From: Closterium sp. NIES-65
Taxonomy: Eukaryota > Streptophyta > Zygnematophyceae > Desmidiales > Closteriaceae
DNA: 64,000 bases
Direction of reading: 5' to 3'
Assembly (NCBI GenBank): GCA_948144175.1
Contig: CANXME010000532.1
Location: forward strand, 2,355,001-2,419,000
Numbering within the stretch: the first letter of the stretch is position 1; each line of letters starts with the position of its first letter. The notes beneath the pieces are model-generated. The model was not told where the DNA came from. It saw nothing but the letters and a program-made list of their open reading frames with translations, and made no database searches. This document shows positions 536-31,996 of the stretch, one piece after another. Both the position numbers and the translations under genes were made by a program.

Positions 536-782
536 ACTGGGATTATGTCTTGTGAGCATGGAGCTTCAAGTCTTGTTGAAACGTATTTGGGTGCCTGTAT
601 TCAACATCGCCTAAACAACGAGCCTTTTTTTTGCACCCATGCCTGAATGGACATGCATTTTGCAGGCTATGGAGAGCGGTAGCAACACGCTTGCAGCCAC
701 CAGCTTTAGTGTTAGCTGGAAGGAAAGCATTGAGGATGGGTGTGACAAGTGAAAAGCACATGCGCTGGCCGCGCCGGGTGAC

Positions 783-1286
783 ATGACCAAGCTCGCGGGG
801 CTGTTGGAAGGCAAGGCCGAGGAAGGCGAGGTACTAAATGGTACCATACGTGTGAAGAACGGCATGGCTATTCCAGGCGACGAGGATTTCACCAAGTACT
901 CCAGTCAAACACATTATGTGCGAGCGTGCGCGTCTTTCGGCGACAAACCATGGTTCAACGATGTAGCAGTGCTTGGTGAAGAGGAGGTTGAGGCTGCGAG
1001 AGGCCAAACGACAAGGCGGAAGGTGATATGGTATGCAAGACTCCTGCTGTTGTTTACCATCGATGTGTACACGCCAGAGACAAAGGCGTTTTCCAAGCGC
1101 GTGTACGCATTTGTCCGCTATTTCAGAGCCACTGGTGCGGTGCACACATCAAAATGCCCGGTGTATGCTTGGGAGGCAGGTGACAACGAGTACCAACTGC
1201 TTGAGCTTGATAACATTCTGCGCGTAGCTCATATGGTTTCGGTCAGTGAGGGGCTCTTTGTTATGAACAAGTTCAAATTTTATTAA
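783..1286 (+). CDS. Hypothetical protein, 167 aa, possibly the 3' part of a larger gene
   Basis: An open frame of 167 codons begins at the first ATG after an in-frame stop and ends at TAA. The product is mixed alpha/beta in composition and not low-complexity. It has a central segment reading YAFVRYFRATGAV followed by a Trp/Tyr-rich stretch (YAWEAGDNEYQLLELDNI) and ends VMNKFKFY. An FVRYF core followed by 'E.Y.LLELD.I' and a terminal 'V.NKF' is reminiscent of uncharacterised proteins often found near plant and fungal transposases, but this is a resemblance from memory. No catalytic motif is visible. It could be the last exon of a gene whose earlier exons are lost or lie in the repeat to the left. 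Family unknown. Confidence 0.5.
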   Translation: MTKLAGLLEGKAEEGEVLNGTIRVKNGMAIPGDEDFTKYSSQTHYVRACASFGDKPWFNDVAVLGEEEVEAARGQTTRRKVIWYARLLLLFTIDVYTPETKAFSKRVYAFVRYFRATGAVHTSKCPVYAWEAGDNEYQLLELDNILRVAHMVSVSEGLFVMNKFKFY

Positions 1287-2339
1287 AAAACGATGGACAT
1301 AACACAATCAGTTCTGTACTCCGGATATTGTAAGCATCGCTTGTTGAAACGAGTCCGCTATTTCTCCCCTATTATCCCTTGTTCCGATTGGAAGTGTAAC
1401 ATTCACCCGTGCGTTGTTGGCGATGTTGTGCCACGCTAGTAATCATTACACAGTTGCTTGCTGGCATGCTGCCGCGCAACTGGGTAACCTTTCCTGCCTC
1501 GTTGGCTAGCGCGCAGTTATCTGCCTGCTGTGCTGTGTCCACCATGCCATTGTTAAGGTTTGTCTGGCTCGATGCAAAGTAGAAATGGGTCCTTCGTAAC
1601 AGCTTCGCAGGACGTCACTTACAGCTGTCAGCCTTCCAGTGACTTCGACAATGTTGCCAGTTTCGCAGGCAAGCCTCTCATTCGTTGGACTTCCATGCCT
1701 AGCGACCACGCCTTGAAAGATACACGTCACTAAACTTTTTGCACCGTCATTGTTCGCAGAATAGTTCGTTGTTTAGCAGCGCAGTTGTCGCGTTGTCTGC
1801 CACGTATGTGTCGTGAGACCATACATTGCCAGATACAGCACCAATGTGTGGAGCGTTTTGGCGTATTTCAAGGACAATCTCGTTTCGAAAAGTGAACCAA
1901 AGCACCTTTTCATTAGTAGAATTCGCATGTTCTGTGTAATGCTGTTCGGTACTTACTAAACGACTCGCAACTAAGTGCGATGTATCATCTATCGCACCAG
2001 CGTTTAACGCTCTGGTTCATTCGAGCAGGGTCGTTGATTAAAGTCCGAGGTGAAGGGTTTGGTCCACTGTTCTCGCAAAGTGTGGTATCGGTGTAATAAT
2101 TTGCTTGTGAAGTAGCTCGGGGTGAACCTTCACGCTGTCAACAATACCCATCGCAACATGCCTCTTAGTCATCGATACCAACGACCTGTGCTACTCATCT
2201 CGTACCCTACCAGAGCAGCTTCTCTTCGTTTCCAACCAGCCGAGCTTCCTCTCGTTCTCAAAGTTCCGCCTAGTCCCACTATTTTTTGCCTCAATTTCAT
2301 CTACGTGCCCTTTGCCTGTTAGTGGGCACTTTAGGAAAC
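1287..2339. other. Intergenic, no gene recognised
   Basis: About 1 kb of mixed composition with stops in all frames and only short shadow ORFs. It presumably holds the 3' flank of the 167-codon ORF and the promoter/5' UTR of the gene starting at 2340. No repeat or RNA gene was seen. Confidence 0.6.
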
Positions 2340-3811
2340 ATGGCGGTAGGCGTGCCCCCAGAAATAATGGAGTTGCAGCGTAAGAGATCCCGAACCTCTA
2401 ACAGGCGTCTCGAAGGCTACGAGCTTGGTAGCCCAACCACAGGAGCTCGTAGAATTTCTACTCCAGCCCAGCAGGTGGGTACCCCGAGCGCTCAGCCTGC
2501 GGAACCCCAGCCTCTGCAAGACCTTGAGGCACTTGAGGCCGAGCACACAGCAGACAATGGAGTTGCCTCTCCCAACCACGCTTCGAACGCTACCGCACAC
2601 GTGGCGCAACCTGGTGCTACTGCAAATGTCATCGCATCCGCTAGAACTGGCGGTACGTTTTACTGATTACTATTCTGTTTCTGTCAGCGTTCACTCCATT
2701 GTTTCATTTGGCCTTATTATAAATATTTAAGTGTCATGACGTTTTGCTCTAATGAAACCTCCCTTGTGTTTTCAGGTGTGCACTCGTCAGATCGTGATGT
2801 TCATCACCCCGAGGCCAACTCGTACAACCACATCGACGCTGCCATACGCGGCGAGCTGAAAGACGTTCGCACTCTGATGCTGCGAATTGAAAACCGGCTT
2901 CGTGTATCGGATGAGATCCACCAGACTCTGGCTGCTACTGTCAAGAATCTTCTCGAAATTGTGCACCAGCCGAGCTGGTGCAACGAGAAAACCATGGAAG
3001 TAAGTGTCTGTTATTTGCTTATTGTTTTGTCTGGCTTACGCGTGTATGTTCTAAACTCTCGTTCTTTTCGCAGGATGCCTGTAAGAAGGCGTGCGATGAT
3101 TTGCTCAAGGGATCAGATGTCTCCCAGCGAGTCATTTACCCTGACGAAGAGCAGTTCAAGGCGGCCGTTGTGGTTCATCTCGCTCTGGAGCCCGAAGACT
3201 TCGGGAAGTTTAACGACTACTGGAAGAAGGGCGAGTGGGCGAAGAGGTGCACCGGCATATGTAACGGCCGGCGGGGGAAACTCGGGAACAAGTCCCGGAA
3301 GGCGAGTTTCAAGCTGCTGAAGTACCCTGGTGGCAAAGTCGTTCAAAACTCCGTCGAGGATCGGCGCAATTATGCTCGAGCCTGTGTCTATGGTACGTGA
3401 GTTATCTTATTGCTGTTGCTCTAGTTATGACTTGTTTGTGACTCCTGTGTTTTTAATTTCAGAGGAGTTTGGCCTGCCGTGGCATGTTGACGAGAACAAG
3501 CCGTTCTGTAGCGAGGCGTTCTTAGCTGCTGCAAGCAAGTGGCAGAAGAAAGAGGGGGGTGTCTACACCCTGAGCATTGACCAGCTGTGCTACACCATGG
3601 TTGCGGTGAGCGAACATGCATTTATAATGCTTTATCTTGCCGTTTTCAACCGGCTAATTTCGCTCTTTTCTTGGCATGTCGAGTTTGAGATGCTATGTCA
3701 TGATCGAAGCAGCGTGTTTTCTGATTCCGAGAACAACACCCGCGAAATGACCAAGAGGAAGTTCCAGGTTGAGAGGTGGGTCCGTCACGCTAGCATTCCA
3801 CTAGTCAATGG
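2340..3811 (+). CDS. Host gene of unknown family, five exons, last exon split by a retrotransposon
   Basis: Exons read from splice signals are 2340-2652, 2776-2999, 3074-3392, 3463-3605 and about 3684 (or 3690) to 3811. The introns of 123, 74, 70 and about 78-84 bp start GTACGT, GTAAGT, GTACGT and GTGAGC, and the reading phase is kept across each. The fourth acceptor is weak (a GAG rather than CAG), and the frame also stays open through that intron. The ATG at 2340 gives MAVGVPPEIMELQ. Residues about 1-105 are Ser/Thr/Pro/Ala-rich and probably disordered. About 120-170 look like a coiled coil (GELKDVRTLMLRIENRL). About 180-330 form a Lys/Trp/Cys-rich globular part (FNDYWKKGEWAKRC, GLPWHVDENKPFC). 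The frame runs to ...SIPLVNG at 3811, where the Copia-1a LTR starts. After the insertion the reading resumes at 18894. As it stands, an mRNA entering the LTR would end within four codons. Function unknown; no enzyme signature recognised. Confidence 0.7.
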
Positions 3812-3942
3812 TGAGAAGAATTGAACGAGAATGGAATGACTATGAACGAAGTGAGTACAAATAGGAAACCCTGATTGGGTTGTACCCCTTATGGGATACC
3901 CCACTATAGCCTACAGAAACAAGTAAGCTATAAGTTCTGACA
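3812..3942 (-). repeat. Copia-1a 3' LTR
   Basis: 131 bp, TG...CA ends on the element strand (TGTCAGAAC...TTCTCA). It is identical to 18763-18893 by eye. It is preceded by target copy AATGG at 3807-3811 and followed by the element's 3' non-coding region. Confidence 0.95.
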
Positions 3943-4156
3943 CACCCCCATAGGCAAAGTGGGGGAGAACAAGGGGTCACAAGACCAGTCAAGCAAAGCA
4001 AAGCAAAGCTCAGGGTGGATCACAAAGTCACCACGCATTCCGAGCACAAGTTCAAAGGCCAGAAGGCCAGTTCACATGCAAGATCATATATAGAGATATA
4101 CAAGAGGCAACCAAGCAAGAACAAGAGTATATATATAGGCGAAGGTACAAGCAAGG

Positions 4157-7100
4157 TCAAGAGGAGAGCAAGTGAGGCAAGAGAGGCACAAGACCCAACT
4201 GCGTGCAACAACGCTGATGATCACAAGGCGCAAGTGCCTTGGTGAAGACATCAGCAGTGTTGGCCTCAGAGTCCACGTACGCAAGTCGCAACTGTCCACG
4301 CTGCTGTAGCTCACGAGCAAGAAAGTAGCGGAGAGCAATGTGCTTCGTTCTGTGCTCCAGTCGCTGCTCTCGACACAAGGCCAGCATGGCCTTGTTGTCT
4401 ACGTACAGGACTGGAGGAGAACGAGGCTGCTCTCCAAGGTCGGTCAGCAGGTAGGTGAGCCAACGTAACTCCTGCGCAGCCATAGCCCCAGCGTAGATCT
4501 CAGCCTCACAACTGGAGCCGAGAACAGAAGACGAGCGGGTAGCCCGCCACGAAACAGAGCCGGAACCAAGGCTGAAGGTGTAACCCTGTGACGACCGCTG
4601 CGTAGCCTGGTCGTCAGCCCAAGAAGCGTCTGCATGCCCAGTGAGGACCACTGGACTGCGCCCTCCAAGCACTAGCCCCATGCCCGACGTGCTGCACAAG
4701 TAGCGCAACACCCTCTTCGCTGCAGCCATGTGCTCTGGTCGGTGTCTCCCAGGAGCAACATAGCGTGCGAGAATGCTAAGAGGGTATGCAAGGTCAGGAC
4801 GTGTGCAGGTCATCAGGTACATGAGGCAGCCAACAAGCTCTGGGTACGGGCCACTTGACTCTACGGACTCATCCGAAGGCAGAGCTGAGAGTGAGTGGCG
4901 AGTAGGCAGAGGAGTGGCCTGAGGCGAGGAGTACGTGAAGCCGAAGCGCTGAAGGACCTGCTGCACCATGTGTGACTGAGTCAGGGTAATGGTGCGGCGC
5001 GCTCTGTCCCGGGTGATCTGCAAGCCAAGGTAGCTACGCAGTTCACCCAGGTCAGTGCACGTGTGTCTCTTCTGCAGCTCGGACTTCACGTAGGCGAGTC
5101 CAGCAGTGTCAGCTGTGGCAAAGACCAAGTCGTCGACGTACACGAGGATGTAGAACGGCGGCAGAGAGGTGTCGGTGCGCAGAAACAGCGACGGGTCGGC
5201 AGTAGACGGAGCAAACCCAAGTGCCGCGAGCGTAGTCCTCAGTGTGTCGTGCCACTCACGAGGCGCCTGGCGGAGACCGTAGACTGGACGCCGAAGACTC
5301 CACTGGGTACCAGGAGGGAACGACCCAGTGAAGCCAGGTGGGCGGCGCAGCCAGATCTCCTCGTGCAGGCTGCCCTGCAAGAAAGCTGTGCTGAAGTCGA
5401 GAGAGTGCAGCTCGTAGTCACGGTGAGCAGCAACGTGCAGCAGAACCCGAAGAGTAGTCATCTTCGGGGTGGGGGAGAAGGTCTGAAAGTAGTCAACCCC
5501 CTGCCGCTGACTGAAGCCACGAGCCACGTAACGCGCCTTGAAGACAGGCGGTGAACCCGGCGGCCGCTTCACCCTGAAAATCCACATGCCACTGACGATG
5601 TTCGCCCCGGGAGGGGGAACAGCGTCGACGTAGGTGCCTGTGGACTTCCAGGAAGCCATCTCTGCATCCATAGCTGCCTGCCACTGAGAGGAGTAGGGAC
5701 CCTCTATCGCCTCCGCGTAAGAGCGCGGAGTCGGGATGTCTGGTGCATCCGGGTCTCCCTCAGGGGCTAGCAGTACAGACGCGAGATGAGGTGAAGCGGC
5801 TGCCAGACACTGGAACTCCTCCTGCCTGTCCTCAAGGACGTCCGTGCCGAGGGCACACTCACCCCCGACGGACGGAGGACAGGCAGACTCAGACTCAGCG
5901 ACAAGACTGGCAGCGTAGTCTAGACGACAGCGTGCAGCAAAGTCGACAAGCTCAGTGACAAGGGCAGACGCAGCAGACGACTCGAAGGAGGGGTCAGTGA
6001 CAGCAGTAGCCAGGAGACGCGTGACAGTAGGACTGGCAGCACGAAGAGAGTCCGACTCCGGGTCGGCAAGAGCAGGAAGAGAGGAAGCAGGAGGAGAAGG
6101 CAAAGGGGCACGCAGAGGAGCAGTGGACGGACGCAGTGACATCCGGTGCGTGCCAGGGACAGGAGGAGGACGCTGACGCGACCCGCGACCACTAGCGCGC
6201 TCAGTACGAACAGGCGACGCAGGACGAGACGCAGGCTCACGACGCTCAGTAAGACCTCCAGTCGGACCAGCGTAGGGAGAAGGAGCAGGCAAAGGGGAGG
6301 CAGGCTGTAGCTGTGGCTGTGACCGGACAGGCTGCGGACCCTCTAAGGGAGGAGGAGGTGTAAGACCAAGAACCTGCTGCAGGAGCGGAACGAAGTACGG
6401 TCGGGGCCGCGCGGCGACGCCAGAAACAGCAGGAACAGCACCAGTACCCCCAGCAGGAGCACCCACTACAGTAGCACCTCCAGCAGCACCAGAACCTCCA
6501 GCAGCAGCACCAGGAGCACTGTCAGTCGGACCGCCAGCGGCAGGCACAGCGCCAACACCCTCAGCAGCACCAGCTCCAGGAGAACCCTCCGACCCAGCAG
6601 CTCCAGCACCCACAGTACGAGCACCTCCGGGACGCGCGGCAGCAGTACCCTCTGCAGCCGAAGAACCACCAGCACCAGCAGCACGTCTCCAGCGCCTGGC
6701 AAACCACTCACGCAGCTCCTGTGGGGAGAGTGGCTCCCGGCGAGACGAAGCACCCCCAGGCACAGCACCCCCAGGCTCAGCACCCCCAGGCTCAGCACCC
6801 CCAGGCTCAGCACCCCCAGGCGCAGCACCCCCAAGCTCAGCACCCCCAGGCTCGGCACCTCCAGGCTCAGCACCCCCAGGCTCAGCACCCCCAGTCTCCG
6901 CACCCCCAGGCTCCGCACCCCCCGGCACAGCACCCCCAGGCACAGCACCCCCAGGCTCCGCACCCCCAGGCTCAGCTCCCGCAGCAGCACCAGAGTCACC
7001 AGTGACCTTAACAGGCTCGACCGCGTCTACCTGGGACACACCTGAAGGGGCAGGACCCTGAGGGGGGAGGGGGTCTACCGGGGGGGGACCTGGTACCAAG

Positions 7101-10078
7101 AAGAGCGGGGGTGGGGGGAGGGACGGAGTGCGGTAGGGGAAGAGGCGGTAGTAGGGTACCGACTCGTCGAAGGTGACGTCCTGGGAGGACAGAACACGTC
7201 GAGAGGTGGGGTGGTAGAACTGCCACCCAGGGGCGTCGGGGGGGAACCCCAGGAAGACGCAGGGAGCAGCGCGAGGGGACAGCTTGTCCGCAGACAAGTC
7301 GCGGACAAACGCCCGAGATCCCCAGACCCGGAACGCCGACGCATCACCAACCTTCCCCGTCCACAGCAGGACTGGGGAGGTCTCCGGCCTGGAGGCCCTG
7401 GGGTGGAGGTTGATCTGATGCGCGGCGTACCTGACCGCAAACGGCCACAGAAAATGGGGGGCAGCCGCATGCATCATGGACGTACGGGCGACGTCCATGA
7501 CCATGCCAATGCGGCGCTCAGCAATCCCATTTTGCTGCGGGGAGTCCGGAAGCGTGAAGGACTGGCGGATGCCTCGCGCACGACAGTAGGCACGCAGAAG
7601 GCCAGAGGAGAACTCTCCGCCTCTGTCCGAGTGCAGACGCAACACAGGAAAGTCGGAGCCAAAGCTCTGCCTGAGCTGAAGACGAGCTGCGCAGATCCAG
7701 TCGATCAGCACCTCAGTGACCTCACCCTTGCTGCGCAAGGGGAAGACTGTGGTGTAACGCGAGTAGTCGTCAACAACGAGCAGGAAGTAGCGCTCCTGAC
7801 CCTGTCCACGGACGCGGGCTGGGCCCCACACGTCCATGTGAAGCGTCTGCAACGGGGCCTCTGTCGGAGGAAACTGGGAGGAGTGAGGGGCAGCACGCTG
7901 GCGCCCCTCGACACAGGGGACACAGGCAGGGCCAGGGCCCTGAGGAAGGGGAGGTAGAGACCGGGGGAGACCAGACACAAGAAGACGGGAGGCCATGCCT
8001 CTGAGCCGAAGCAGAGAGGGGTGGCCTAGGCGGTGGTGCCAGAGGAGGGTCTCGTGAGACAGACGACGACACGAACAGGGGGCAGACTCAGGACCAGACC
8101 TGGACGCTGCGGCAAACACCTGACCAGACGAAGGGACCCTACCAGACTCAGCACCTGGAGGAGAAGCAGTGGTCAGTGTGTACAGGCTCGACCCTGGCCG
8201 ACGTGTAAACGTAGCCAGGTGGCGTCCCGTGCTAGCCTCCGTGCAGTGGGTCACTCGCTGACGAGCAGGAGTGAACTGGTGGACACCCGCATCCTGTAGG
8301 TCAGCACCACTCACCAGGTTCGTCGAGAACGAGGGGAGGTAGAGACCAGACAGGGTGCCAGAGGGGGCCGCAGGACACGGAAGGACCGTGGAGAAGCGAG
8401 ACAGGACAGGCCCCCCAGAGGGGTCAGCCAGGGACACCGCAACTGGCCGACTCAGCGGCGTGAGAGTGGTGCGGTCCCGAAAGAAGGAGCGAGACGCTCC
8501 AGAGTCAAGGGTGAAGGTGTGAGAGGCCGAAGCCGACACAGTACCTGAGAGGGCAAACTCACCAGTACCTGAGAGCACAGACGCACTGGCACCTAGAGCA
8601 GCAGCCTCACTAGCACCTGACGCAGCAGTACCAATGCCCGGGTCGGGCGGGAAACACCGGTAACAGTCATCCTCATCACTACCAGTCACAGCATACATAG
8701 CAGAGAGAATAGCATCAAAATCAAGATCATAAATAGCTACACCAGCCCTAGACAGCTCCCCCCAGCGGGGGATCTCAGCGGCCTCTGGAAACTGCTGACG
8801 CCAGGCGTCGGTCAGGCGGCCAAAGCAGCGGCGGGCTGCGTGGGTGCCTCCACACCTCTCCCCCGCACGGTCACCGGTGCGAAGAACGTAGGGGCAGGGA
8901 CCAAACGCACCACCACGCTGACGCTGCAAGTACCACTCACGGAGCTGCTGAGGGGCGGGGACGGTGCGAGAGCGCTGCTGCTGCTGTGGCTGCTGCTGCT
9001 GCTGCTGCTGGCGCTGGCCACCCCCAGAGCTGCTCCGCTGGGACGAGCCACTCCGACCCCCGCCGCCACCGCCACTCCCGCCTCCAACGCCACCCCTGTC
9101 TCCACCGCCACCGCCCCCACCGGTACCCTCGCCCCCGCCTCCTCCGCCACCGCCTCCGCCGCCACCTCCGCCTCCACCGCCTCCACCAGTACCTCCACTC
9201 CCGCCACCACCTCCACCGCCACCCCCACTCCCTCCGCCACCCCCACCTCCTCCGCCTCCACTGCCCCCTCTAGCTCCACCCGCTCCCTTGCCCCCCTTGC
9301 CCTTGCCAGAGCGGCGTCTACCGCTGGGGGCAGACGCCGCACCGACCGACTCAAAACCAGCGAGGTCGGCCGCAGCGGCAGAGGCGACAGAGGGCAGCAG
9401 GGGGGAAGGAGAACACCCCTCAAAGATGGGGGTGCGAGGGTCACCCCGAGAGGCCCCTACAGCGACGATGCTCTTCTCAGCCGCTAGCAGGGACTCCTCA
9501 AGGAGGTCGACAGTGAGGGTGGTGGGACAGACAGAGAGAAACCGGTCCCTAACGACACGAAGGGACTCAGGGAGACGGGTGACGAGAAAGTAGAGAGTGA
9601 TGTACATGGGAGGAGGGTTTGCGGCGCGGAACTCAGCAGGAAGGGCAGCGCGGTAGCGAGCGTCACTAGCGCGGAGGTGGGTAACGAGGTCAGCGACAGT
9701 GGGAAAGGCAGCGAGGTCAGGGAAGAGAAACGGTAGCATGAGGCGGCTCAGCGTAGCGGAGGAAGGGGAGGAGTAGCGTGCAACTACAGCGTCGTACAAG
9801 GCCTGAGCGGTCTTGCACTGACTAAAGTGGGCACGCTCGGAGGAAGGGAGGTGGCGACGCACAGCAAGACGTGCAGCAGCATCGCGTGTGGCCCACTTGG
9901 AGCGAACAGCAGGGTCACCATCAGCAGGAGGGGCAGGGACAGCTCCAGAGACAAAGTCAAAGAGAGAAACCTCATCGATCGCATCGCACAGTAAGTACAG
10001 CTGCAGGTCCTCAATCCAGACTGGGAAGTCAATGGCGCGACCCTCAGCGTCAAAAGACAGGACACTGGGGGTGGCCAT
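4157..10078 (-). CDS. Copia-1a gag-pol polyprotein (about 1973 aa), open
   Basis: This single frame encodes all functions of a Ty1/Copia element. The start is set at [14 protein letters not shown], conserved in all four relatives here; an ATG 15 codons upstream is in frame. In order: a Gag helical part (about 1-260); a Gly-rich run (about 263-349) and a Gln run; a Cys/His cluster near 400-420 ([10 protein letters not shown]); an aspartic protease with [12 protein letters not shown] near 523; an integrase with HHRLGHPS...CVPC and catalytic segments LHMDVWGPA (near 749), HSDRGGEF and [12 protein letters not shown]; a variable linker with PGGAE repeats (about 1030-1110); a reverse transcriptase with YVDDLVFAT near 1646; and an RNase H with [10 protein letters not shown] near 1813. 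The order integrase before reverse transcriptase is diagnostic of Copia. The frame is open from end to end. Confidence 0.93.
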
Positions 10079-10264
10079 TGCAGCAGCTGATTGTCTCACC
10101 GGGCACGAAGAGTCGGGTAGCACAGCGGCTCAGCAACTCGGCAAAACAGCAGCTGCGCACGCCTCGGAGCAGCAGCAGCCACGCAGGAGCAGGAGCTCGG
10201 CTTCTCAGGTTGCCCGGGCGGCTCGGGCGGCTCGGGTTGCTGGGGCGGCGCGGGCGGCTCGGGC

Positions 10265-10395
10265 TGTCAGAACATATAGCTTACTTGTTTCTGTAGGCTA
10301 TAGTGGGGTATCCCATAGGGGGTACAACACAATTAGGGTTTCCTATTTGTATTCACTTCACTTCATAGTCATCCATTCTCGTTCACACTTTCTCA
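10265..10395 (+). repeat. Copia-1b 5' LTR
   Basis: 131 bp, TGTCAGAACATATAG...TTTCTCA, preceded by target copy CGGGC and followed directly by the primer-binding site. Confidence 0.95.
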
Positions 10396-10498
10396 TGGAA
10401 TCAGAGCAGGTCCCTTCTTAGGGCCTGTTCCTAGGGCCCACCGAAGCGCGCCCCGAGGCGCACATTTTTTTAGCGACCCTCCGTGTTGCCCTCCCCGT

Positions 10499-11345
10499 CG
10501 TGCTCCCGCTTAGGCCCCTCGTCGGCCCCCCCCCCCCCCCCTTAGGCCCCTCGTCGGCCCCGCCTAGGCCCCTCGTCGGCCCCGCGTAGCCCCCGTCGGC
10601 CCCACTTAGGCCCCGCGTCGGCCCCACCTAGACCCCGTCGGCTCCTCGTCGGCCCCGCCTAGGCCCCACGTCGGCCCCGCGTAACCCCCCGTCGGCCCCG
10701 CTTAGGCCCCACGTCGGCCCCGCGTAGCCCCGCTTAGGCCCGTCGGCCCCGCTTAGGCCCCGCTTTGGCCCCGCGTCGGCCCCGCCTAGACCCCGTCGGC
10801 CCCGCGTTGGCCCTGCTTAGGCCCCGTCGGCCCCGCGTTGGCCCCGCTTAGGCCCCGCCGGCCCGCCTAGGCCCCACTTCGGCCCCTCGTCGGCCCCGCC
10901 CAGACCTCGTCGGCCCCGCCACGGCCCTACGCCGGCCCCGCTTCAGCTGCTGTCGGCCCCGCTACAGCCCGCCACTGGCCTCGCTACACCCCGCCACTGG
11001 CCCCGCTACAGCCTGCCACCGGCCCCACTACGGCCCGCCGTTGGCCCCGCTACAGCCCGCACCGGCCCCTGCTACAGCCCGCCGCCGGCCCAGCTACAGC
11101 CCGCCGCCGGCCCAGCAACAGCCCGCCCCCGGCCCAGCTACAGCCCGCCGCCGGCCCAGCTACAGCCCACCGCCGGCCCAGCTACAGCCCGCCGCCGGCC
11201 CCGCTACAGCCCGCCACCGGCCCCTGCTACAGCCCGCTGCCGGCCCAGCTACAGCCCGCCCCGGCCCCGCTACAGCCCGCCGTCGGCCCGCCGTCGGCCC
11301 CACTACAGCCCTCCCCGCGGCCCCTGCTGCAGCCCGCCGTGCTGC
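10499..11345. repeat. Copia-1b leader minisatellites
   Basis: Imperfect tandem array of units of about 18-22 bp built on GTCGGCCCCGCTTAGGCCCC (10499-10980). It passes into a second array built on CTACAGCCCGCCGCCGGCCC (10980-11345) and then a 9-bp GAGCCGCCC array up to about 11450. The array is open in one frame, which extends the apparent ORF upstream of the conserved start at 11536; I do not take that extension as protein. Confidence 0.8.
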
Positions 11346-11535
11346 ACGTGAGCCCCTACGCCACCCGAGCCGCGCGAGCCGCCCGAGCCGCCCGAGCCGC
11401 CCGAGCCGCCCGAGCCGCCCGAGCCGCCCGAGCCGCCCGAGCCGCCTGAGGAGCCGTGCTGCTGTTCCTGAGCTGTGTTCCTCTGCTGCTGACCTACCCG
11501 ACTCTCCCAGCCCGGTGAGACTTTCAGCTGCTGCC

Positions 11536-14500
11536 ATGGCCACCCCCAATGTTCTTACTTTTGACGCTGAGGGGAGGGCCATTGACTTTGCCGTCTGGAT
11601 TGAAGACCTGCAGCTGTACTTACTGTGTGATGCGATAGATGAGGTCTCTCTCTTTGACTTTGTCTCTGGCGCTGTCCCTGCCCCACCTGCTGATGCTGAC
11701 TCTGCCGTTCGCTCCAAGTGGGCGACCCGCGATGCTGCTGCACGTCTTGCTGTGCGTCGCCACCTCCCTTCCTCAGAGCGTGCCCACTTTAGTCAGTGCA
11801 AGACCGCTCAGGCCTTGTACGACGCTGTAGTTGCACGCTACTCCTCCCCTTCCTCCGCTACCCTTAGCCGCCTCATGCTACCGTTTCTCTTCCCTGACCT
11901 CGCTTCCTTTCCCACTGTCGCTGACCTCGTTACCCACCTCCGTGCTAATGACACCCGCTACCGCGCTGCCCTTCCTGCTGAGTTCCGCGCTGCGAACCCT
12001 CCTCCCATGTACATCACTCTCTACTTTCTCGTCACCCGTCTCCCTGAGTCCCTTCGTGTCGTTAGGGACCAGTTTCTCTCTGTCTGTCCCACCACTCTCA
12101 CTGTCGACCTCCTTGAGGAGTCCCTGCTAGCGGCTGAGAAGGGTATTGTCGCTGTAGGGGCCTCTCGGGGTGACCCTCGCACCCCCATCTTTGAGGGGTG
12201 TGGTCCTTCCCCCCTGCTGCCCTCTGTCGCCTCTGCCGCTGCGGCCGACCTCGCTGGTTTTGAGTCGGTCGACGCGGCGTCTGCCCCCAGCGGCAGACGC
12301 CGCTCTGGCAAGGGCAAGGGGGGCAAGGGAGCGGGTGGAGCTAGAGGGGGCGGTGGAGGAGGCGGTGGGGGTGGCGGGGGGAGTGGGGGTGGCGGTGGGG
12401 GTGGTGGCGGGAGTGGAGGTACTGGTGGCGGCGGTGGAGGCGGAGGTGGCGGCGGAGGTGGTAGCGGAGGAGGCGGTGGGAGCGGTGGGAGCGACGGTCC
12501 TGGTGGGGGAGGTGGCGGTGGAGACGGGGGTGGCGGTGGAGGCGGGGGTGGCGGTGGAGGCGGGGGTCGGAGTGGCTCGTCCCAGCGGAGCAGCTCTGGG
12601 GGTGGTCAGCGCCAGCAGCAGCAGCAGCAGCAGCCGCAGCAGCAGCCACAGCAGCAGCAGCGCTCTCGCACCGTCCCCGCCCCTCAGCAGCTCCGTGAGT
12701 GGTACTTGCAGCGTCAGCGTGGTGGTGCGCTTGGTCCCTGCCCCTACGTTCTTCGCACCGGTGACCGTGCAGGGGAGAGGTGTGGAGGCGCCCACACAGC
12801 CCGCCGCTGCTTTGGCCGCCTAACCGACGCCTGGCGTCAGCAGTTTCCGGAGGCCGCTGAGATCCCCCGCTGGGGAGAGCTGTCTAGGGCTGGTGTAGCT
12901 ATTTATGATCTTGATTTTGATGCTATTCTCTCTGCTATGTATGCTGTGACTGGTAGTGATGAGGATGACTGTTACCGGTGTTTCCCGCCCGACCCGGGCA
13001 TTGGTACTGCCGCGTCAGGTACTAGTGAGGCTGCTGCTCTAGGTGCCAGTGCGTCTGTGCTCTCAGGTGCTGGTGAGTCTGCCCTCTCAGGTACTGTGTC
13101 GGCTTCGGCCTCTCACACCTTCACCCTTGACTCTGGAGCGTCTCGCTCCTTCTTTAGGGACCGCACCACTCTCACGCCGCTGAGTCGGCCGGTTGCGGTG
13201 TCCCTGGCTGACCCCTCTGGGGGGCCTGTCCTGTCTCGCTTCTCCACTGTCCTCCCGTGTCCGGCGGCCCCCTCTGGCACCCTGACTGGTCTCTACCTCC
13301 CCTCGTTCTCGACGAACTTGGTGAGTGGTGCTTACCTCCAGGATGCGGGTGTCCACCAGTTCACCCCTGCTCGTCAGCGGGTGACCCACTGCACGGAGGC
13401 GGATACAGGTCGCCACCTGGCTACGTTTACACGTCGGCCAGGGTCGAGCCTGTACACACTGACCACTGCTTCTCCTCCAGGTGCTACGTCTGGTAGGGTC
13501 CCTTCGTCTGGTCAGGTGTTTGCTGCAGCGTCCAGGTCTGGTCCTGAGTCTGCCCCCTGCTCGTGTCGTCGTCTGTCTCACGAGACCCTCCTCTGGCACC
13601 ACCGCCTTGGCCACCCCTCTCTGCTTCGGCTCAGAGGCATGGCCTCGCGAGTCCTTGTGTCTGGTCTTCCCCGGTCTCTCCCTCCCCTTCCTCCGGGCCT
13701 TGGCCCTACCTGTGTCCCCTGTGTCGAGGGGCGCCAGCGTGCTGCCCCTCACTCCTCCCAGTTTCCTCCGACAGAGGCCCCGTTGCAGACGCTTCACATG
13801 GACGTGTGGGGCCCAGCCCGCGTCCGTGGACAGGGTCAGGAGCGCTACTTCCTGCTGGTGGTTGACGACTACTCGCGTTACACCACAGTCTTCCCCTTGC
13901 GCAGCAAGGGTGAGGTCACTGAGGTGTTGATCGACTGGATCCGCGCAGCTCGTCTCCAGCTTCGGAGGAGCTTTGGCTCTGACTTCCCTGTTTTGCGTCT
14001 GCACTCGGACAGAGGCGGAGAGTTCTCCTCTGGCCTCTTGAGTGCCTACTGTCGTGCGCGAGGCATCCGTCAGACCTTCACGCTTCCGGACTCACCACAG
14101 CAGAATGGGATTGCTGAGCGCCGCATTGGCATGGTCATGGACGTCGCTCGTACGTCCATGATGCATGCGGCTGCTCCCCATTTTCTGTGGCCGTTTGCGG
14201 TCAGGTGCGCACCAGATCAACCTCCACCCCAGGGTCTCTCGACCGGAGACCTCCCCAGCCCTGCTGTGGACGGGGAAGGTTGGCGATGCGTCGGCGTTCC
14301 GGGTCTGGGGATCTCGGGCGTTTGTTCGCGACCTGTCTGCGGACAAGCTGTCCCCTCGTGCTTCTCCCTGCGTCTTCCTGGGGTTCCCCCCTGACGCCCC
14401 TGGGTGGCAGTTTTACCACCCCACCTCTCGACGTGTTCTATCCTCCCAGGACGTCATGTTCGACGAGTCGGTACCCTACTACCGCCTCTTCCCCTACCGC

Positions 14501-17500
14501 ACTCCGTCCCTCCCCCCACCCCCGCTCTTCTTGGTACCAGGTCCCCCCCCGGTAGTCCCCCTCCCCCCTCAGGGTCCTGCCCCTTCAGGTGTGTCCCAGG
14601 TAGACGCGGTCGAGCCTGTCGAGGTCACTGGTGACTCAGGTGCTGCTGCGGGAGCTGAGCCTGGGGGTGCGGAGTCTGGGGGTGCTGAGCCTGGGGGTGC
14701 TGAGCCTGGGGGTGCTGTGCCTGGGGGTGCTGAGCCTGGAGGTGCCGAGCCTGGGGGTGCTGTGTCTGGGGGTGCTGTGCCTGGGGGTGCTGAGCCTGGA
14801 GGTGCCGAGCCTGGGGGTGCTGTGCCTGGGGGTGCTGTGCCTAGGGGTGCTGAGCCTGGGGGTGCTGAGCCTGGGGGTGCTGTGCCTGGGGGTGCTTCGT
14901 CTCGCCGGGAGCCACTCTCCCCACAGGAGCTGCGTGAGTGGTTTGCCAGGCGCTGGAGGCGTGCTGCTGGTGCTGGTGGTTCTTCGGCTGCAGAGGGTAC
15001 TGCTGCCGCGCGTCCCGCCGGTGCTTGTACTGTGGGTGCTGGAGCTGCTGGGTCTGAGAGTTCTCCTGGAGCTGGTACTGCTGAAGGTGTTGACGCTGAG
15101 CCTGCCGTTGGCGGTCCGATTGACAGTGCTCCTGGTGCTGCTGCTGGAGGTTCTGGAGCTTCTGGTGGTGCTGCTGGAGGTGCTGCTGGAGTGGGTGCTC
15201 CTGCCGGGGCTGCTGGTGCTGTTCCTGCTGTTTCTAGCGTCGCCGCGCGGCCCCGACCGTACTTCGTTCCGCTCCTGCAGCAGGTTCTTGGTCTTACACC
15301 TCCTCCTCCTCCCTTAGAGGGTCCGCAGCCTGTCCGGTCACAGCCACAGCTACAGCCTGCCTCCCCTTTGCCTGCTCCTTCTCCCTACGCTGGTCCGACT
15401 GGAGGTCTTACTGAGCGTCGTGAGCCTGCGTCTCGTCCTGTGTCGCCTGTTCGTACTGAGCGCGCTAGTGGTCGCGGGTCGCGTCAGCGTCCTCCTCCTG
15501 TCCCTGGCACGCACCGGATGTCACTGCGTCCGTCCACGACTCCTCTGCGTGCCCCTTTGCCTTCTCCTCCTGCTTCCTCTCTTCCTGCTCTTGCCGACCC
15601 GGAGTCGGACTCTCTTCGTGCTGCCAGTCCTACTGTCACGCGTCTCCTTGCTACTGCTGTCACTGACCCTTCCTTCGAGTCGTCTGCTGCGTCTGCCCTT
15701 GTCACTGAGCTTGTCGACTTTGCTGCGCGCTGTCGTCTAGACTACGCTGCTCGTCTTGTCACTGAGTCTGAGTCCGCCTGTCCTCCGTCCGTCGGGGGTG
15801 AGTGTGCCCTTGGCACGGACGTCCTTGAGGACAGGCAGGAGGAGTTCCAGTGTCTGGCCGCCGCTTCACCTCGTCTCGCGTCTGTACTGCTAGCCCCTGA
15901 GGGAGACCCGGATGCACCAGACATCCCGACTCCGCGCTCTTACGCGGAGGCGATAGAGGGTCCCTACTCCTCTCAGTGGCAGGCAGCTATGGATGCAGAG
16001 ATGGCTTCCTGGAAGTCCACAGGCACCTACGTTGACGCTGTTCCCCCTCCTGGGGCGAACATCGTCAGTGGCATGTGGATTTTCAGGGTGAAGCGGCCGC
16101 CGGGTTCTCCGCCTGTCTTCAAGGCGCGTTACGTGGCTCGTGGCTTCAGTCAGCGGCAGGGGGTTGACTACTTTCAGACCTTCTCCCCCACCCCGAAGAT
16201 GACCACTCTTCGGGTCCTGCTGCACGTTGCTGCTCACCGTGACTACGAGCTGCACTCTCTCGACTTCAGCACAGCTTTCTTGCAGGGCAGCCTGCACGAG
16301 GAGATCTGGCTGCGTCGCCCACCTGGCTTCACTGGGTCTTTCCCTCCTGGTACCCAGTGGAGTCTCCGGCGTCCAGTCTACGGTCTCCGCCAGGCGCCAC
16401 GTGAGTGGCACGACACACTGAGGACTACGCTCGCGGCACTTGGGTTTGCTCCTTCTACTGCCGACCCGTCGCTGTTTCTGCGCACCGACACCTCTCTGCC
16501 GCCGTTCTACATCCTCGTGTACGTCGACGACTTGGTCTTTGCCACAGCTGACACTGCTGGACTCGCCTACGTGAAGTCCGAGCTGCAGAAGAGACACACG
16601 TGCACTGACCTGGGTGAACTGCGCAGCTACCTTGGCTTGCAGATCACCCGGGACAGAGCACGCCGCACCATTACCCTGACTCAGTCACACATGGTGCAGC
16701 AGGTCCTTCAGCGCTTCGGCTTCACGTACTCCTCGCCTCAGGCCACTCCTCTGCCTACTCGCCACTCGCTCTCAGCTCTGCCTTCGGATGAGTCCGTAGA
16801 GTCGAGTGGCCCGTTTGCAGAGCTTGTTGGCTGCCTCATGTACCTGATGACCTGCACACGACCTGACCTCGCATACCCTCTTAGCATTCTCGCACGCTTT
16901 GTTGCTCCTGGGAGACACCGACCAGAGCACATGGCTGCAGCGAAGAGGGTGTTGCGCTACTTGTGCAGTACGTCGGGCATGGGGCTAGTGCTTGGAGGGC
17001 GCAGTCCAGTGGTCCTCACTGGGCACGCAGACGCTTCTTGGGCTGACGACCAGGCTACGCAGCGGTCGTCACAGGGTTACACCTTCAGCCTTGGTTCCGG
17101 CTCTGTCTCGTGGCGGGCTACCCGCTCGTCTTCTGTTCTCGGCTCCAGTTGTGAGGCTGAGATCTACGCTGGGGCTATGGCTGCACAGGAGTTACGCTGG
17201 CTCACCTACCTGCTGAACGACCTTGGAGAGCAGCCTCGTTCTCCTCCAGTCCTGTACGTAGACAACAAGGCCATGCTGGCCTTGTGTCGAGAGCAGCGAC
17301 TGGAGCACAGAACGAAGCACATTGCTCTCCGCTACTTTCTTGCTCGTGAGCTACAGCAGCGTGGACAGTTGCGACTTGCGTACGTGGCCTCTGAGGCCAA
17401 CACTGCTGATGTCTTCACCAAGGCACTTGCGCCTTGTGATCATCAGCGTTGTTGCACGCAGTTGGGTCTTGTGCCTGTCTTGCCTCACTTGCTCTCCTCT

Positions 17501-17503
17501 TGA
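11536..17503 (+). pseudogene. Copia-1b gag-pol polyprotein region, broken (about one break)
   Basis: The same domain order as Copia-1a is present: Gag with Gly-rich and Gln-rich runs, the Cys/His cluster (CGGAHTARRC), protease [12 protein letters not shown], integrase ([25 protein letters not shown]), a linker with many [10 protein letters not shown] repeats, reverse transcriptase (YVDDLVFAT) and RNase H ([10 protein letters not shown]). The start is placed at MATPNVLTFDAEGR. Protein similarity to Copia-1a and Copia-3 is very high throughout. The region as a whole is not one open frame. Confidence 0.9.
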
Positions 17504-17715
17504 CCTTGCTTGTACCTTCGCCTATATATACTCTTGCTCTTGCTTGCTTGACTCTTGTATATCTCTATATATGATCTTGCATGTGAACTGGCCTTCTGGC
17601 CTTTGAACTTGTGCTCGGAATGCGTGGTGACTTTGTGATCCACCCTGAGCTTTGCTTTGCTTTGCTTGACTGGTCTTGTGACCCCTTGTTCTCCCCCACT
17701 TTGCCTATGGGGGTG

Positions 17716-17846
17716 TGTCAGAACATATAGCTTACTTGTTTCTGTAGGCTATAGTGGGGTATCCCATAGGGGGTACAACACAATTAGGGTTTCCTATTTG
17801 TATTCACTTCACTTCATAGTCATCCATTCTCGTTCACACTTTCTCA
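17716..17846 (+). repeat. Copia-1b 3' LTR
   Basis: 131 bp, identical by eye to 10265-10395. It follows the purine-rich CTATGGGGGTG tract and is followed by target copy CGGGC. Confidence 0.95.
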
Positions 17847-18059
17847 CGGGCGGCTCGGGCGGCTCGGGCGGCTCGGGTTGCTGGGGCGGCGCGGGCGGCT
17901 CGGGCGGCTCGGGCGGCTCGGCTGTACGGGCGGCTCGTGCGGCGAGGGCGTCGCGACGGGCGGCTCGCTGGCAGCTCGCGGGCGGCTGAGGGACGGCGGG
18001 TGCACGGGAGGCTCGGCGGGCGGCGTACAGGCAGCTCACGGGCGGCTGCGACGGGCGGC

Positions 18060-18640
18060 GCTCAGGCGTCAGGGCGGGCGGCCGTAAGGGCGAAAGGGCG
18101 GGCGGCGCTCGGGCGCTAGGGCGAGCGGCGCACGGGTGCTAGGGCGGGCGGCCGGCCGTCAGGGCGCTAGGGCGGGCGGCCGTCAGGGCGCTAGGGCGGG
18201 CTGCGCTCGGGCGCTAGGGCGGGCGGCCGTTAGGGCGCTAGGGCGGGCGGCCGTCAGGGCGCTAGGGCGAGCGGCGCACGGGCGCTATGGCGGGCGGCCG
18301 TCAGGGCGCTAGGGCGGGCGGCGCTCGGGCGCTAGGGCGGGCGGCGCTCGGGCGCTAGGGCGGGCGGCGCTCGGGCGCTAGGGCGGGCGGCGCTCGGGCG
18401 CTAGGGCGGGCGGCCGTCAGGGCGCTAGGGCGGGCGGCCGTCTGGGCGCTAGGGCGGGCGGCGCTCGGGCGCTAGGGCGGGCGGCCGTCAGGGCGCTAGG
18501 GCGGGCGGCCGTCAGGGCGCTAGGGCGGGCGACGTTCGGGCGCTAGAGCGGGCGGCCGTCAGGGCACTAGGGCGGGCGGCCGTCAGGGCGCAAGGGCGGC
18601 GGCGCTCGGGCGCTAGGGCGGGCGGCCGTCAGAGGAGGGA
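18060..18640. repeat. Copia-1a leader minisatellite (24-bp unit)
   Basis: Between the 5' LTR and the nested insertion the leader is a tandem array of a 24-bp unit built from GCGCTAGGGCGGGCGG followed by CCGTCAGG or CGCTCGG, about two dozen copies with small variations. It is almost pure G/C. The adjoining 17847-17930 carries a 9-bp GGCTCGGGC repeat shared with the other Copia leaders. Confidence 0.85.
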
Positions 18641-18762
18641 GCGGCGGGAGCGCGACGGTAGGGGCGACACGCAGGGTCGCTAAAAAAAAAGAACGCGCGC
18701 CTCGGGGCGCGCTTCGGTGGGCCCTAGGAACAGTCCCTAGGAGGGGACCTGCTCTGATTCCA

Positions 18763-18893
18763 TGAGAAGAATTGAACGAGAATGGAATGACTATGAACGA
18801 AGTGAGTACAAATAGGAAACCCTGATTGGGTTGTACCCCTTATGGGATACCCCACTATAGCCTACAGAAACAAGTAAGCTATAAGTTCTGACA
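18763..18893 (-). repeat. Copia-1a 5' LTR
   Basis: 131 bp, identical by eye to 3812-3942. The primer-binding site lies beside it at 18751-18762 and the target copy AATGG at 18894-18898. Confidence 0.95.
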
Positions 18894-18956
18894 AATGGGT
18901 TCTACTATTTTGGAGATGTCATTGTTAAGGATTGGCAGATTGTAGAGGATGTTTAG
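18894..18956 (+). CDS. Displaced 3' end of the split host gene
   Basis: The 5-bp sequence AATGG just before the left LTR (3807-3811) is repeated at 18894-18898, directly after the right LTR. Reading on in the same codon phase gives NGFYYFGDVIVKDWQIVEDV and then TAG. This is a clean end to the gene whose last exon stops at 3811. The matching phase and the exact target duplication support one original exon; about 19 codons are displaced by 15.1 kb. Confidence 0.75.
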   Translation, partial: NGFYYFGDVIVKDWQIVEDV

Positions 18957-19279
18957 TAGCTTTATGTAGCTGTAGTGCATATGTAGGTTTAGTATGTGAT
19001 ATTTTGTTGATTAATTTCTAACCAATTAGTATTGTAAGCGTTTAATATTAGTAAATTATAATTAGGGAATTGTTTTGATTTGTTGATAATAAACCCATTC
19101 GAAATTCTACTGATCATAATTTTAGCAGTGTAGTTATCTCAATTAAATGTCACCTTGTCACATCTCCAATAGGAACAAATATCCTCTAAACTTTTCTTTA
19201 TCGCTTTTATACATACGCATATTGTTATCACGCGGTAACCAACTTTAACAATTTTGTTACGCGCGTGTCGCCCTGCGGC
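18957..19279. other. AT-rich 3' flank of the host gene
   Basis: AT-rich sequence without open frames follows the TAG at 18954-18956. It contrasts sharply with the GC-rich elements on both sides. It probably holds the host gene's 3' UTR; no clear polyadenylation signal stands out. Confidence 0.5.
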
Positions 19280-20168
19280 CCCCCCCCCCCCCCCCCCTCC
19301 CCGCACACCTGCGTTTGCTTACCGCACACCCGAGTTCGCTTCCCGCACACCCGATTTTGCTTCCCGCACGCTTGTGCATGCTTCGCGCACACCTGAGCTC
19401 GCCTACCGCACACTCAGGGTATGGGGGTGACGGGTATGGGGGTGGCGGGTGTGCGCGGTCCCCTGCTCCTCCTCCTCCTCCGTCTCCCACTGCTGCAGCT
19501 GCCGCTGAGGGGGGTGGGTGTGTGGGAGACGAAGGAGTGGTGCTAGGGGGGTGTGTGGGAGTAGAGCTAGTGGTGTAGCAGTGGGTGTGTATGAGGGGGG
19601 TGGGACTGTGTGCGGGAGGATGAGTGGAGGTTGCCAGTTTGTCGTCAGCAACACCTGTATTCCGGGGGCTTCGCCCGGTAGCCCAGTCGTAGCCAGCTGT
19701 GCCAGCCGCCCGTGGGTCCGTTGCTCGTCTGCCGCTACTTTAGCCGCGGGGCCAGTTACTCCAGTAGTCCGGGGGCGTCGCCCGGTAGCCGCTGTGCCAG
19801 TGTGCCTCCTGTTGCCCGTGTGTCTGCAGCTTCAGCTGTCGCCTCCCAACTCCTCTCGCTCTCACTCCTCCTCCTCACTTGCCCGTTGTGACCACCACTA
19901 GTTTTGCTTATAATTGTGAACTATGAACTATTTCTTCTTGAACTTGTGCTCAGAATGTGTGGTGACATTGTGATCCACCCTGAGCTTGTTTTGTTTTGCC
20001 TGCACTGCTGATTACACCCCACTTTGGCTATGGGGGTGTGTCAGAATATTATCTTATTGTTCTAGCCTGTAGTGGGGTGCTCTATAGCGAGTACAACCCT
20101 TCTAGGGTTTGCTATTTGTATCCTCATTCTTGCTAGTTCAATCCTCTTTCTTTCTTCTAATTTTGACA
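19280..20168 (+). mobile_element. Non-autonomous LTR element, 5' truncated
   Basis: Starting with a C run (about 19280-19299), this stretch has a five-copy 21-bp minisatellite (CGCACACCCGAGTTCGCTTC type, 19301-19410), then a GC-rich non-coding interior. The 3' end matches the interior of the element at 41184-42586 closely, including GCTGCAGCTGCCGCTG, TTGAACTTGTGCTCAGAATG and ACCCCACTTTGGCTATGGGG. It ends in an LTR at 20039-20168. No 5' LTR or target duplication was found, so the left part is missing. There is no gag or pol. Confidence 0.75.
20039..20168 (+). repeat. LTR of the truncated non-autonomous element
   Basis: TGTCAGAATATTAT...TTTTGACA, about 130 bp. It shares the core CTGTAGTGGGGTGCTCTATAG with the LTRs at 41184 and 42411 but diverges in its last third. 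Confidence 0.75.
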
Positions 20169-20247
20169 CGTCATTCCACCACCACCCCTCTCCGCCTCCT
20201 GTTTGTACCACCCCTTCTAGTACCCGAGCGATGTCTAGCTCGTTCCC

Positions 20248-23148
20248 ATGGCACCTCCTGGAGACCCTTACGAAGCTAGTGGTGGTGATGGAGACCCGTC
20301 TAGTAGCACCAGGCCTAGGACTGGCCTCGATTTCTTGCGAGGCCATGTTACAGAAGCTGCACCCAACCCTTTGCCAGAGACGTATGTTGACAGTGAGGGG
20401 TGGCACTATCCCGTGCGCAAAGTTCCGCCACAGTCACCATCGCGGCAGCAGGAGCAAGACAACGATGACGATGCGGACACCGTCGTCCGCGACCACGTGG
20501 TAACGACGGAGATCGTTACGGAAGCACCTGAATCTTCTAACTCGGTGGCGCTGAAACGACCCCGCTACATGCAGACGACCATTGGGTTTGGCACCGGCAC
20601 GCCTCTCGTGAGACCTCCTCCTCCGCCACCTTCCACTGTTACTCCCGCGCCATCTCCTCTCAAACTGACTGCCTCGGAACGCAATGCTGCGAAGTTCCTG
20701 GAGGCTCAGCGAAACTACATCACGAAGTGGCTCCCGCAGTTCGACTGGCTATTGCTCGACAAGGGTGAGGATGGGCTGCCTCGTTTGCGTTGCAGTGTGT
20801 GCAGTGAACATGGCCCAGACAACGCACGTTACGGGAGGAATGGTTGCGGTGGACGCGACTTGCAGCCAGCGTCTATGCGTGCGCACCAGGCAAGCACTCG
20901 CCACGAGGAGTGCATCGACCGTCAGAAGGGGCTTCTCGACAAGCTGGCGGCGCAGAAGAAGATAGACGACTACGAGAGAGCCGACCCTGAGAGCGCGCGC
21001 GTGGTCAGGCTCATGCGGAGCATTCAGTTTGTGTGCGACGAGGACGCGCCGATCTCAATGTTCCCGCGCCTCGTGGAGTTTCTGGCCAGGGAGGGTATTT
21101 CGGACATCCCTAAGCAGGGCTACGGCGTTTACATCACTGAGTGAGTACAGGGCGGGTATCCCATGTAGAGGATGTGATCACAACCTCGTCGATGACTAAT
21201 CTGTGTGTGCGCTTCTTGCAGGTACGGTTTCCAGGAGATGGTGAAGGCAATGAGCTCCTATCAGCAGCAACAACAGCTCATGCACGTACACGCGTCACCT
21301 TGGATCGGCAGCAGCTGTGATGAGAGCACGGACAGAGCGCGCGGGAAGCATCTGGTGGTGTTCGTGACTTTCCTGAAGCATCGTCAGGTGGCGACCGAGT
21401 TCTTTGCGCTGCTGACGGTCCACAAGTGTGACGCTGCTTCAATCTTCACCGTCCTGCTGGCCCACTTGGAGACTGTTGGCATAATTCTGCAGAGGATCGC
21501 CGCCATCAGCACAGACGGCGCGGGTGTGATGGTTGGCTGCGAGAGGGGGCTTGTGGTGCGCCTCCGTGAGCGCATCCCTCATCTTGTCGGCACGCACTGC
21601 ATCGCACATAGGTAAGTGTCGTTTACGTTCAACACATACTGCTCAATCCTACTTGTAAAAGTGTCCTAATGCTAAACGTTTTATTGTGCAGAGAAGCACT
21701 AGCTGTGAAGGAGTCGGCGCTGAAGTACAAGGACCTGGACATCGTCGATGCTGCAATCCGAGGGCTTGGCGACATCGTCACCAAGTCTTCCGTCTGGCAT
21801 GAGCGGTTCAAAGAGCTGCAGCAGGAATTTCACAAGACAAACCTGGAGCACCAGGGGCTTTTTGACGTGAGGTGGCTGTCGCGTGGAGATGCTGTGCAGC
21901 GGCTGTGCAAGGTCCTCGGTGCGGCGGTCGTGGTGTTCATCGAGTACGGCCACAAGTTGGCCGCTACGCTTCAGACGCTGAAGTTCCACTTCTGCGTATA
22001 CTTCTTGGCGGATCTACTTGCAGAGATCAACGCCCTCAACAAATTCTTCCAGCGACGGAAAGTAAGTGATTCATGTGTTGCTGGTTCGTGTGCGTTCGCT
22101 TTGCCAAAATTGAATAATGTTTTAACGCAATCTCATTGTACCCGTGGTTATCTCAGGTTGACATCACGCTCGTGCACCAGGTGGTGGACCGCACGATCTC
22201 TTGCATCAGGCTGCGCTACGTGGAATACGACAACGGTTTCGGAGGGGGAGTCAGCAACCTGCTGTCGCCCTTCATCGCACGTATGGCCAATGGGAAAAGG
22301 AAGATAAAGTGGACGGCGTGGATTCGGAGGGCGAGCCAACATCGCATGAGATCGTGCTGAGCGAGGAGCCGATAAAAGGACACAAGTTCGGCGGCACGAT
22401 GGCCGACTGCATCAAGCTCTGTAAGGCGTTTGCGCTGGAGGTGGCGACAAATCTGCACACACGCATGTATAGCCTGAAGGACATGGAGGGCAGCAAGCTG
22501 TACAAGGTGGAGACGTGGCCAGAAGCGACAGACAAACGGGAGCGACGGGTCGTACAGTGGCTGGATTCCAATGCGCGTGTCTTCTTGAACAGGCTGCCAG
22601 GTGTGTTGATGCGTGCGTGGCAAAAAACTCCCGTCCAAGTGCTGTTTGCATGTGCGAAGTCGGTAGACTAATGATTGTGCCTTTTGTCTTATGTTCACGT
22701 GGCAGGCTTCAACCACCGAGCGGCGGAGATGGAACTGAAGTGCTTCTGCCACGTCATGTCGCGACACTACGAGGATGAGGACTTCTACCAAGGGCTGTCG
22801 AAGATGCTGAAGACCAAGGACTGGCCACGCAGCTTCCCCAACCTGGTGTCGATGTGGCAGGCGCTCGCAGTGATTCCGTTGAGCACCGTGGAGTGCGAGC
22901 GCGGATTCAGCCGCCAAAACGTTATCAAAAGCTGGATGCGCACATCGCTCGGCGACGCCCGTCTATCCGAGCTGATGACTCTCAACATGCTTGACTATGA
23001 GTACAAATGGGCCGACGTGGTCGACATCTGGCGGAAGCAGAAGAAGAGGAGACCCGCTAAATCAACAGCTCCATACAATCGCAGTGTTGGAAAGGGCATG
23101 GCAATAGGGGAGTCGTCTGATAGCGAGGACGAGCATGATGGATATTGA
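20248..23148 (+). CDS. hAT-superfamily transposase, multi-exon, one frame break
   Basis: Exons: 20248-21140, 21222-21611, 21692-22061, 22157-22600 and 22706-23148. All introns are 80-105 bp with GT...AG and consistent phase. The product would cut and paste hAT DNA transposons, or is a domesticated relative. Residues about 1-150 are disordered and Pro-rich. A BED-like zinc finger follows (LRCSVCSEHG ... MRAHQASTRHEEC). The RNase H-like core shows the hAT first Asp in SSCDESTDRARGKH and the second in ISTDGAGVMVG. The C-terminus has the dimerisation signature ECERGFSRQNVIKSWMRTSL. Within exon 4, near 22280, the frame shifts: SNLLSPFIAR is in one frame and YGQWEKEDKVDGVDSEGEP in the next. This is either one indel (decay or assembly error) or an unusual splice. 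A stop at 23146-23148 is followed by AATAAA at about 23182. No terminal inverted repeats were identified. Confidence 0.85.
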
Positions 23149-26446: not shown

Positions 26447-26451
26447 GATAG

Positions 26452-26782: not shown

Positions 26783-26966
26783 CTTGGTATTCAGAGCCTA
26801 CGATCTCCTCTCGGACCGCATCCACACCTTCGCTTCCCACTATCTCAATTTTTGGGGGGGGGGGTAGACGTCTCTCAGCGATACAGCACCGCCGCTCGTA
26901 GTGCTCTCTTGCAAGCACGCACGGCCACGACCGAGGCTCTCGCTGAGCTTGCCCGACACCCCCGCC

Positions 26967-31633: not shown

Positions 31634-31660
31634 GGAAGACCTCCTTAGGAGGGGGGGTAG

Positions 31661-31991: not shown

Positions 31992-31996
31992 GATAG

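Follow-up and report, generated by a model that had tools for sequence, protein, structure and literature searches.

A young copia nest in a probable Plavaka transposon copy of Closterium sp. NIES-65

PlavakaB elements, in the passages of PMC12730594 that concern them, end in CATCA..TGATG and are flanked by target site duplications (TSDs) of 2 or 3 bp. Plavaka is mentioned for Amoebidium in PMC11244446, and the green alga Auxenochlorella possesses EnSpm-Plavaka in a genome where, in the relevant part of PMC12633428, many transposable element insertions segregate between the two haplotypes. Long terminal repeat (LTR) elements nested in other elements are, for their part, described in PMC6911290 as common in plant genomes. 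Here, we examine a locus of Closterium sp. NIES-65 at which a Plavaka-like DNA transposon and nested copia LTR retrotransposons appear together. Specifically, a stretch of 64,000 nucleotides (the window; contig CANXME010000532.1, positions 2,355,001 to 2,419,000) holds a five-exon gene, called ORF2, that is interrupted in its last exon. We conclude, with a probability of roughly 0.95, that the locus holds one copy of a cut-and-paste transposon of the Plavaka group, that the last exon of this copy's ORF2 is interrupted by an antisense copia, and that the leader of this copia holds a second one. A previous sequence-only reading took the interrupted gene for a host gene; as described below, it is instead a dispersed repeat, the second gene of a Plavaka transposon.

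An antisense copia in the last exon of ORF2

The outer copia and everything within it measure 15,082 bp (3812-18893; Table 1), in keeping with the nest of about 15 kb proposed earlier. The 5-bp TSD AATGG borders the insertion on both sides. The two outer LTRs, of 131 bp each, are identical at 131/131 positions and have TG..CA ends. The gag-pol frame encodes gag, integrase, and RVT_2 in the Copia order: rve occupies positions 758-864 of the frame and RVT_2 positions 1507-1741, the integrase-first arrangement of Ty1/copia. The inner copia sits on the opposite strand, between the 5' LTR and the gag-pol frame of the outer element. Its LTRs likewise agree at 131/131 positions, and its TSD, CGGGC, is found at 10260-10264 and 17847-17851. 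Both elements possess the TG..CA LTR pair and 5-bp TSD of Ty1/copia. Between the outer and the inner LTRs, 122 of 133 aligned positions match, and the two elements are thus related members of different subfamilies.

On the gene side, the frame entering the left LTR reads G-E-K-N-stop, with the stop codon at 3822-3824, and the C-terminal codons FYYFGDVIVKDWQIVEDV-stop are intact beyond the right LTR. The proposals that copia cut a single exon and that the frame ends within about four codons of the LTR both stand.

Table 1. Features of the interrupted Plavaka copy, in window coordinates
Feature	Position	Strand	Remark
Plavaka copy, 3' part	1..23625	+	homology to copy L010; left end presumably upstream of the window, in a stretch of N
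Exon upstream of ORF2, putative 3' part of transposase gene	666..1286	+	
ORF2 exons 1-4 and start of exon 5	2340..3811	+	intron 4 acceptor AT at 3676-3677
Left TSD of outer copia, AATGG	3807..3811	.	
Outer copia LTR (3' LTR in element orientation), 131 bp	3812..3942	-	
Outer copia gag-pol frame, 1990 codons	4160..10129	-	
Inner copia	10265..17846	+	TSD CGGGC
Outer copia LTR (5' LTR in element orientation)	18763..18893	-	identical to 3812-3942
Right TSD of outer copia, AATGG	18894..18898	.	
End of ORF2 exon 5, ..FYYFGDVIVKDWQIVEDV-stop	18894..18956	+	joined to the left part in 20/20 fetched copies
Second insertion, about 4.1 kb	19268..23370	.	about 26 nt of target (L010 6382-6407) without counterpart

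We note that the window contains further probable LTR elements, at 26445-31992, 32472-39992, and 53593-60939, with terminal direct repeats that are 98-100% identical. A 246-bp direct repeat, 100% identical (55730-55975 and 56947-57192), lies among copia gag and pol frames.

ORF2 as the second gene of a Plavaka unit

The interrupted gene exists in many copies. A search of the organism's own genome (874 Mb, 2400 contigs) with window DNA 2800-3800, in which 40 of 62 candidates were scored, returned 41 match rows, some copies yielding two or three. Twenty-seven rows on 27 contigs, window included, show 96-100% identity over at least 719 of the 1001 bases; a second, diverged group comprises five full-length rows at 78-79% identity. 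Twenty copies were fetched from these rows, 18 from the 96-100% group and two from the 78-79% group. In every one, the exon is continuous through the copia site and the frame runs on into a FYYFGDVIVKDW-like C-terminus (variants are a single F in place of Y, D replaced by E in the two diverged copies, and K replaced by E in L011 and L012). Eighteen of the 20 retain the natural stop. A natural end near 3811 without the residues of 18894-18956, which the sequence-only reading had named as evidence against a split exon, appears in none of them. In copy L010, ORF2 has five exons, 396 codons, and GT..AG at all four introns. Aligned to L010, 11 of the 20 copies are free of internal stops and gaps and keep every splice dinucleotide, with two of the 11 lacking the final stop.

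The gene is enclosed in a transposon. Homology to L010 covers window positions 1-3811, 18896-19267, and 23371-23625. The right terminus of the element reads ..TTCTTCGTGCGATG; in the window it ends at 23625, where the sequence is GCGATG. Among the 16 copies read at this terminus, window included, there are 13 different flanks, three pairs of copies having a common flank; a 17th copy, L018, is broken before the right terminus and was left out of the count. The left terminus reads CATCGCAACTCTGCAGG. Left ends were sought in five copies: C1584, C222, and C1346 were read at both ends, C1450, read at its left end alone, shares its left flank with C1584, and C1957 is without the usual left end. The three copies read at both ends, which lie at separate places, have the termini CATCGCA..TGCGATG and the 2-bp TSDs TG, AT, and CA. 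In C1584, the copy measures 8,506 bp.

The transposase domain lies inside the same ends. Specifically, the Plavaka domain PF18759 is found upstream of ORF2 in two frames of L010, at E-values of 4.7e-19 and 4.5e-07 (69.2 and 29.8 bits, above the cut-off of 26.3). The termini conform to the CATC..GATG pattern of PlavakaB, and the TSDs, of 2 bp in 3/3 copies, fall within its 2-3 bp range. Given the upstream PF18759, the CATCGCA..TGCGATG ends, the 2-bp TSDs, and the published PlavakaB form, we assign the element to PlavakaB-like DNA transposons, with ORF2 as its second gene.

Linkage across the genome points the same way. ORF2 exon 3 has 83 match rows, with identity down to 32%. Twelve of the 83 have a Plavaka match no more than 30 kb away, where about 0.8% per row is expected by chance; all 12 are on the same strand as the Plavaka match, and 11 are downstream of it. 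The count used 123 of 133 Plavaka rows, the 10 weaker rows left out being second pieces of listed places, and the Plavaka search itself scored 123 of 1397 candidates.

ORF2 also bears marks of constraint. The ratio of nonsynonymous to synonymous substitution rates (dN/dS) is 0.14, 0.14, and 0.15 in three pairs of copies from different subfamilies (385-386 codons). Pfam gives no family for the window ORF2 pieces, and for the spliced L010 protein its best match, PF06194 (E-value 0.055), falls below that family's cut-off. The Protein Data Bank (PDB), searched by sequence up to an E-value of 10, gives no match for ORF2. Viral contigs give none for L010:5663-6067, an imperfect query in which intron 4 was wrongly read as coding. 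A structure model of exon 3 alone, built from four rows, is mostly helical and, at a mean predicted local distance difference test score (pLDDT) of 59.1, too weak for use. What is mildly new here is ORF2 itself, conserved between subfamilies and without Pfam or PDB match.

In plant CACTA elements, TnpA serves transposition. By analogy, the most likely role of the protein that intact ORF2 copies encode would be in Plavaka transposition. We give even odds to the stronger proposal that ORF2 is an undescribed, long-conserved Plavaka accessory protein of the green lineage that is needed for transposition, for example through binding the element ends. If so, the copia insertion knocked out the transposon's own partner gene.

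Several observations weigh against the assignment of the locus to Plavaka. The transposase domain of the window copy itself is not seen, the stretch upstream of the window reading N. Some contigs look like duplicates that share flanks, so copies and linked rows are not all independent. Five pairs of ORF2 copies within subfamilies, which differ by few changes, have dN/dS of 0.25, 0.34, 0.48, 1.06, and 2.34, and constraint is thus shown between subfamilies only. One of the 12 linked ORF2 rows is upstream of its Plavaka match. Finally, 71 of the 83 rows have no Plavaka match within 30 kb, possibly because just 123 of the 1397 Plavaka candidates were scored.

Alternatives, probable decay, and age

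An alternative that we regard as unlikely holds that ORF2 is a host gene captured by Plavaka, with the host ancestor still in the genome. The missing Pfam and PDB matches would suit such an origin, as would some diverged relatives, down to 32% identity, that have no scored Plavaka neighbor. However, the 12 linked rows include six with 37-38% identity, and these too have a Plavaka match on their own strand, 10-23 kb upstream of them. The pairing of ORF2 with Plavaka looks old on this evidence, although duplicated contigs may account for some of the six. We give very little credence to the idea that the nest arose from repeats wrongly joined in assembly: the assembly is repeat-rich and has contigs resembling duplicates, but each copia element has a complete pair of LTRs with TG..CA ends and, around it, an exact 5-bp duplication. 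Least credible of all is a true host gene into which copia inserted recently, the insertion being either polymorphic or tolerated, a reading favored by the five-exon structure, the clean exon phase, and the constraint between subfamilies, but one that we reject on copy number and transposon ends, since a host gene should be low in copy number and outside mobile elements, whereas this one recurs in 27 near-identical rows on 27 contigs, has transposon ends shared by copies with differing right flanks (13 among 16), is enclosed by those ends in all three copies read at both, and shares its unit with a Plavaka transposase.

The Plavaka copy in the window is damaged beyond the copia nest. In the exon upstream of ORF2, a premature TGA occupies 750-752; 10 of the 11 copies that cover the site, among the 20 fetched, have TGG, and L025 also has TGA. 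This exon has no Pfam match of its own, the Plavaka domain lying further upstream in L010. Intron 4 of ORF2 (3606-3677) has lost its acceptor, which is AG in 20/20 fetched copies versus AT in the window. The intron is 72 nt long and open in frame, and its retention alone would therefore not stop the protein. Since the aligned copies have an intron here, the interrupted exon would begin at 3678; a single exon running through 3606-3677 was considered and rejected on the same grounds. Downstream of ORF2, the second insertion includes an LTR-like stretch (20038-20168) that recurs in L019 and L026. Together, the second insertion, the premature TGA, and the lost acceptor make this probably a dead copy, and the DNA transposon at the window is probably decaying. 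A long GT-rich repeat (window 1-540), preceded in the element by the transposase domain and followed by the exon at 666-1286, recurs in other Plavaka copies.

Both copia insertions are young, as both LTR pairs are identical, although LTRs of 131 bp give a coarse bound on age; the claim of a recent hit is thus sustained. The outer copia would have inserted first and the inner one later. The insertion may have hit repeat-rich DNA or landed by chance, and it may persist because its target is a dispensable, multi-copy element. That the insertion is tolerated needs no special explanation, because uninterrupted copies exist and the window copy has a nonsense codon and a lost acceptor. All told, the locus appears to reflect ordinary nesting of young copia elements, with no host gene hit.

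Insertions of this copia family differ between contigs. In a genome search with the outer LTR (2139 first-look candidates, 40 scored), contig C1450 was found to hold, with the TSD ATAGC, a copia whose LTRs have 98% identity to the window outer LTR. The near-identical contig C1584 lacks that copia at the corresponding position. Insertions of the family thus differ between haplotypes or duplicated segments, and polymorphism of the insertion at the window locus, as the sequence-only reading had suggested, is plausible. A search for a second allele of the locus with the right flank (23400-26400; 40 of 91 candidates scored) found none: the Plavaka end aside, the matches are other stretches of the window's own contig. 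The sequence to the right of the Plavaka end (23626-26400) belongs to a local repeated family, with several mostly partial matches of 66-94% identity within about 165 kb, all of them on this contig. Elsewhere in the window, a transfer RNA gene (62284-62355) is the sole Rfam match at the gathering threshold. The genome also has rbcL, with 24 match rows. A 309-residue fragment of the product scores best against plant-type Rubisco, led by PDB chain 9chz_A, and lower against the Chlamydomonas chain 1gk8_A, most chains that rank between these two being from land plants; this places the genome in the green lineage, probably among streptophytes.

Comparison with described elements

The locus carries a caution: here, one transposon nested in another passed for a host exon knocked out recently, a mistake easily made when gene calls rest on a single sequence. 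The locus also contributes two families: in a green-lineage genome, a Plavaka family that is defined in its anatomy and has a conserved second gene; and a young copia family, one insertion of which sets two near-identical contigs apart.

Set beside described systems, the copia elements of the window resemble Ty1/copia retrotransposons in their 5-bp TSDs, TG..CA LTRs, and gag, integrase, RVT_2 order, and differ in their short LTRs (131 bp) and GC-rich repetitive leader. The nesting of LTR elements is like that described for plants in the pertinent part of PMC6911290, whereas the targets here are an exon of a DNA transposon and the 5' leader of a copia. With the EnSpm-Plavaka of Auxenochlorella, as presented in PMC12633428, the shared trait is the occurrence of Plavaka in a green alga. 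A further counterpart is PlavakaB, a CMCT/EnSpm-like group in the account of PMC12730594, with which the Closterium element shares the Plavaka transposase domain, CATC..GATG termini, and a short TSD. The PlavakaB elements of that account come from Agaricomycotina fungi; the element described here resides in a green-lineage host, has termini that begin with CATCG, and possesses ORF2.
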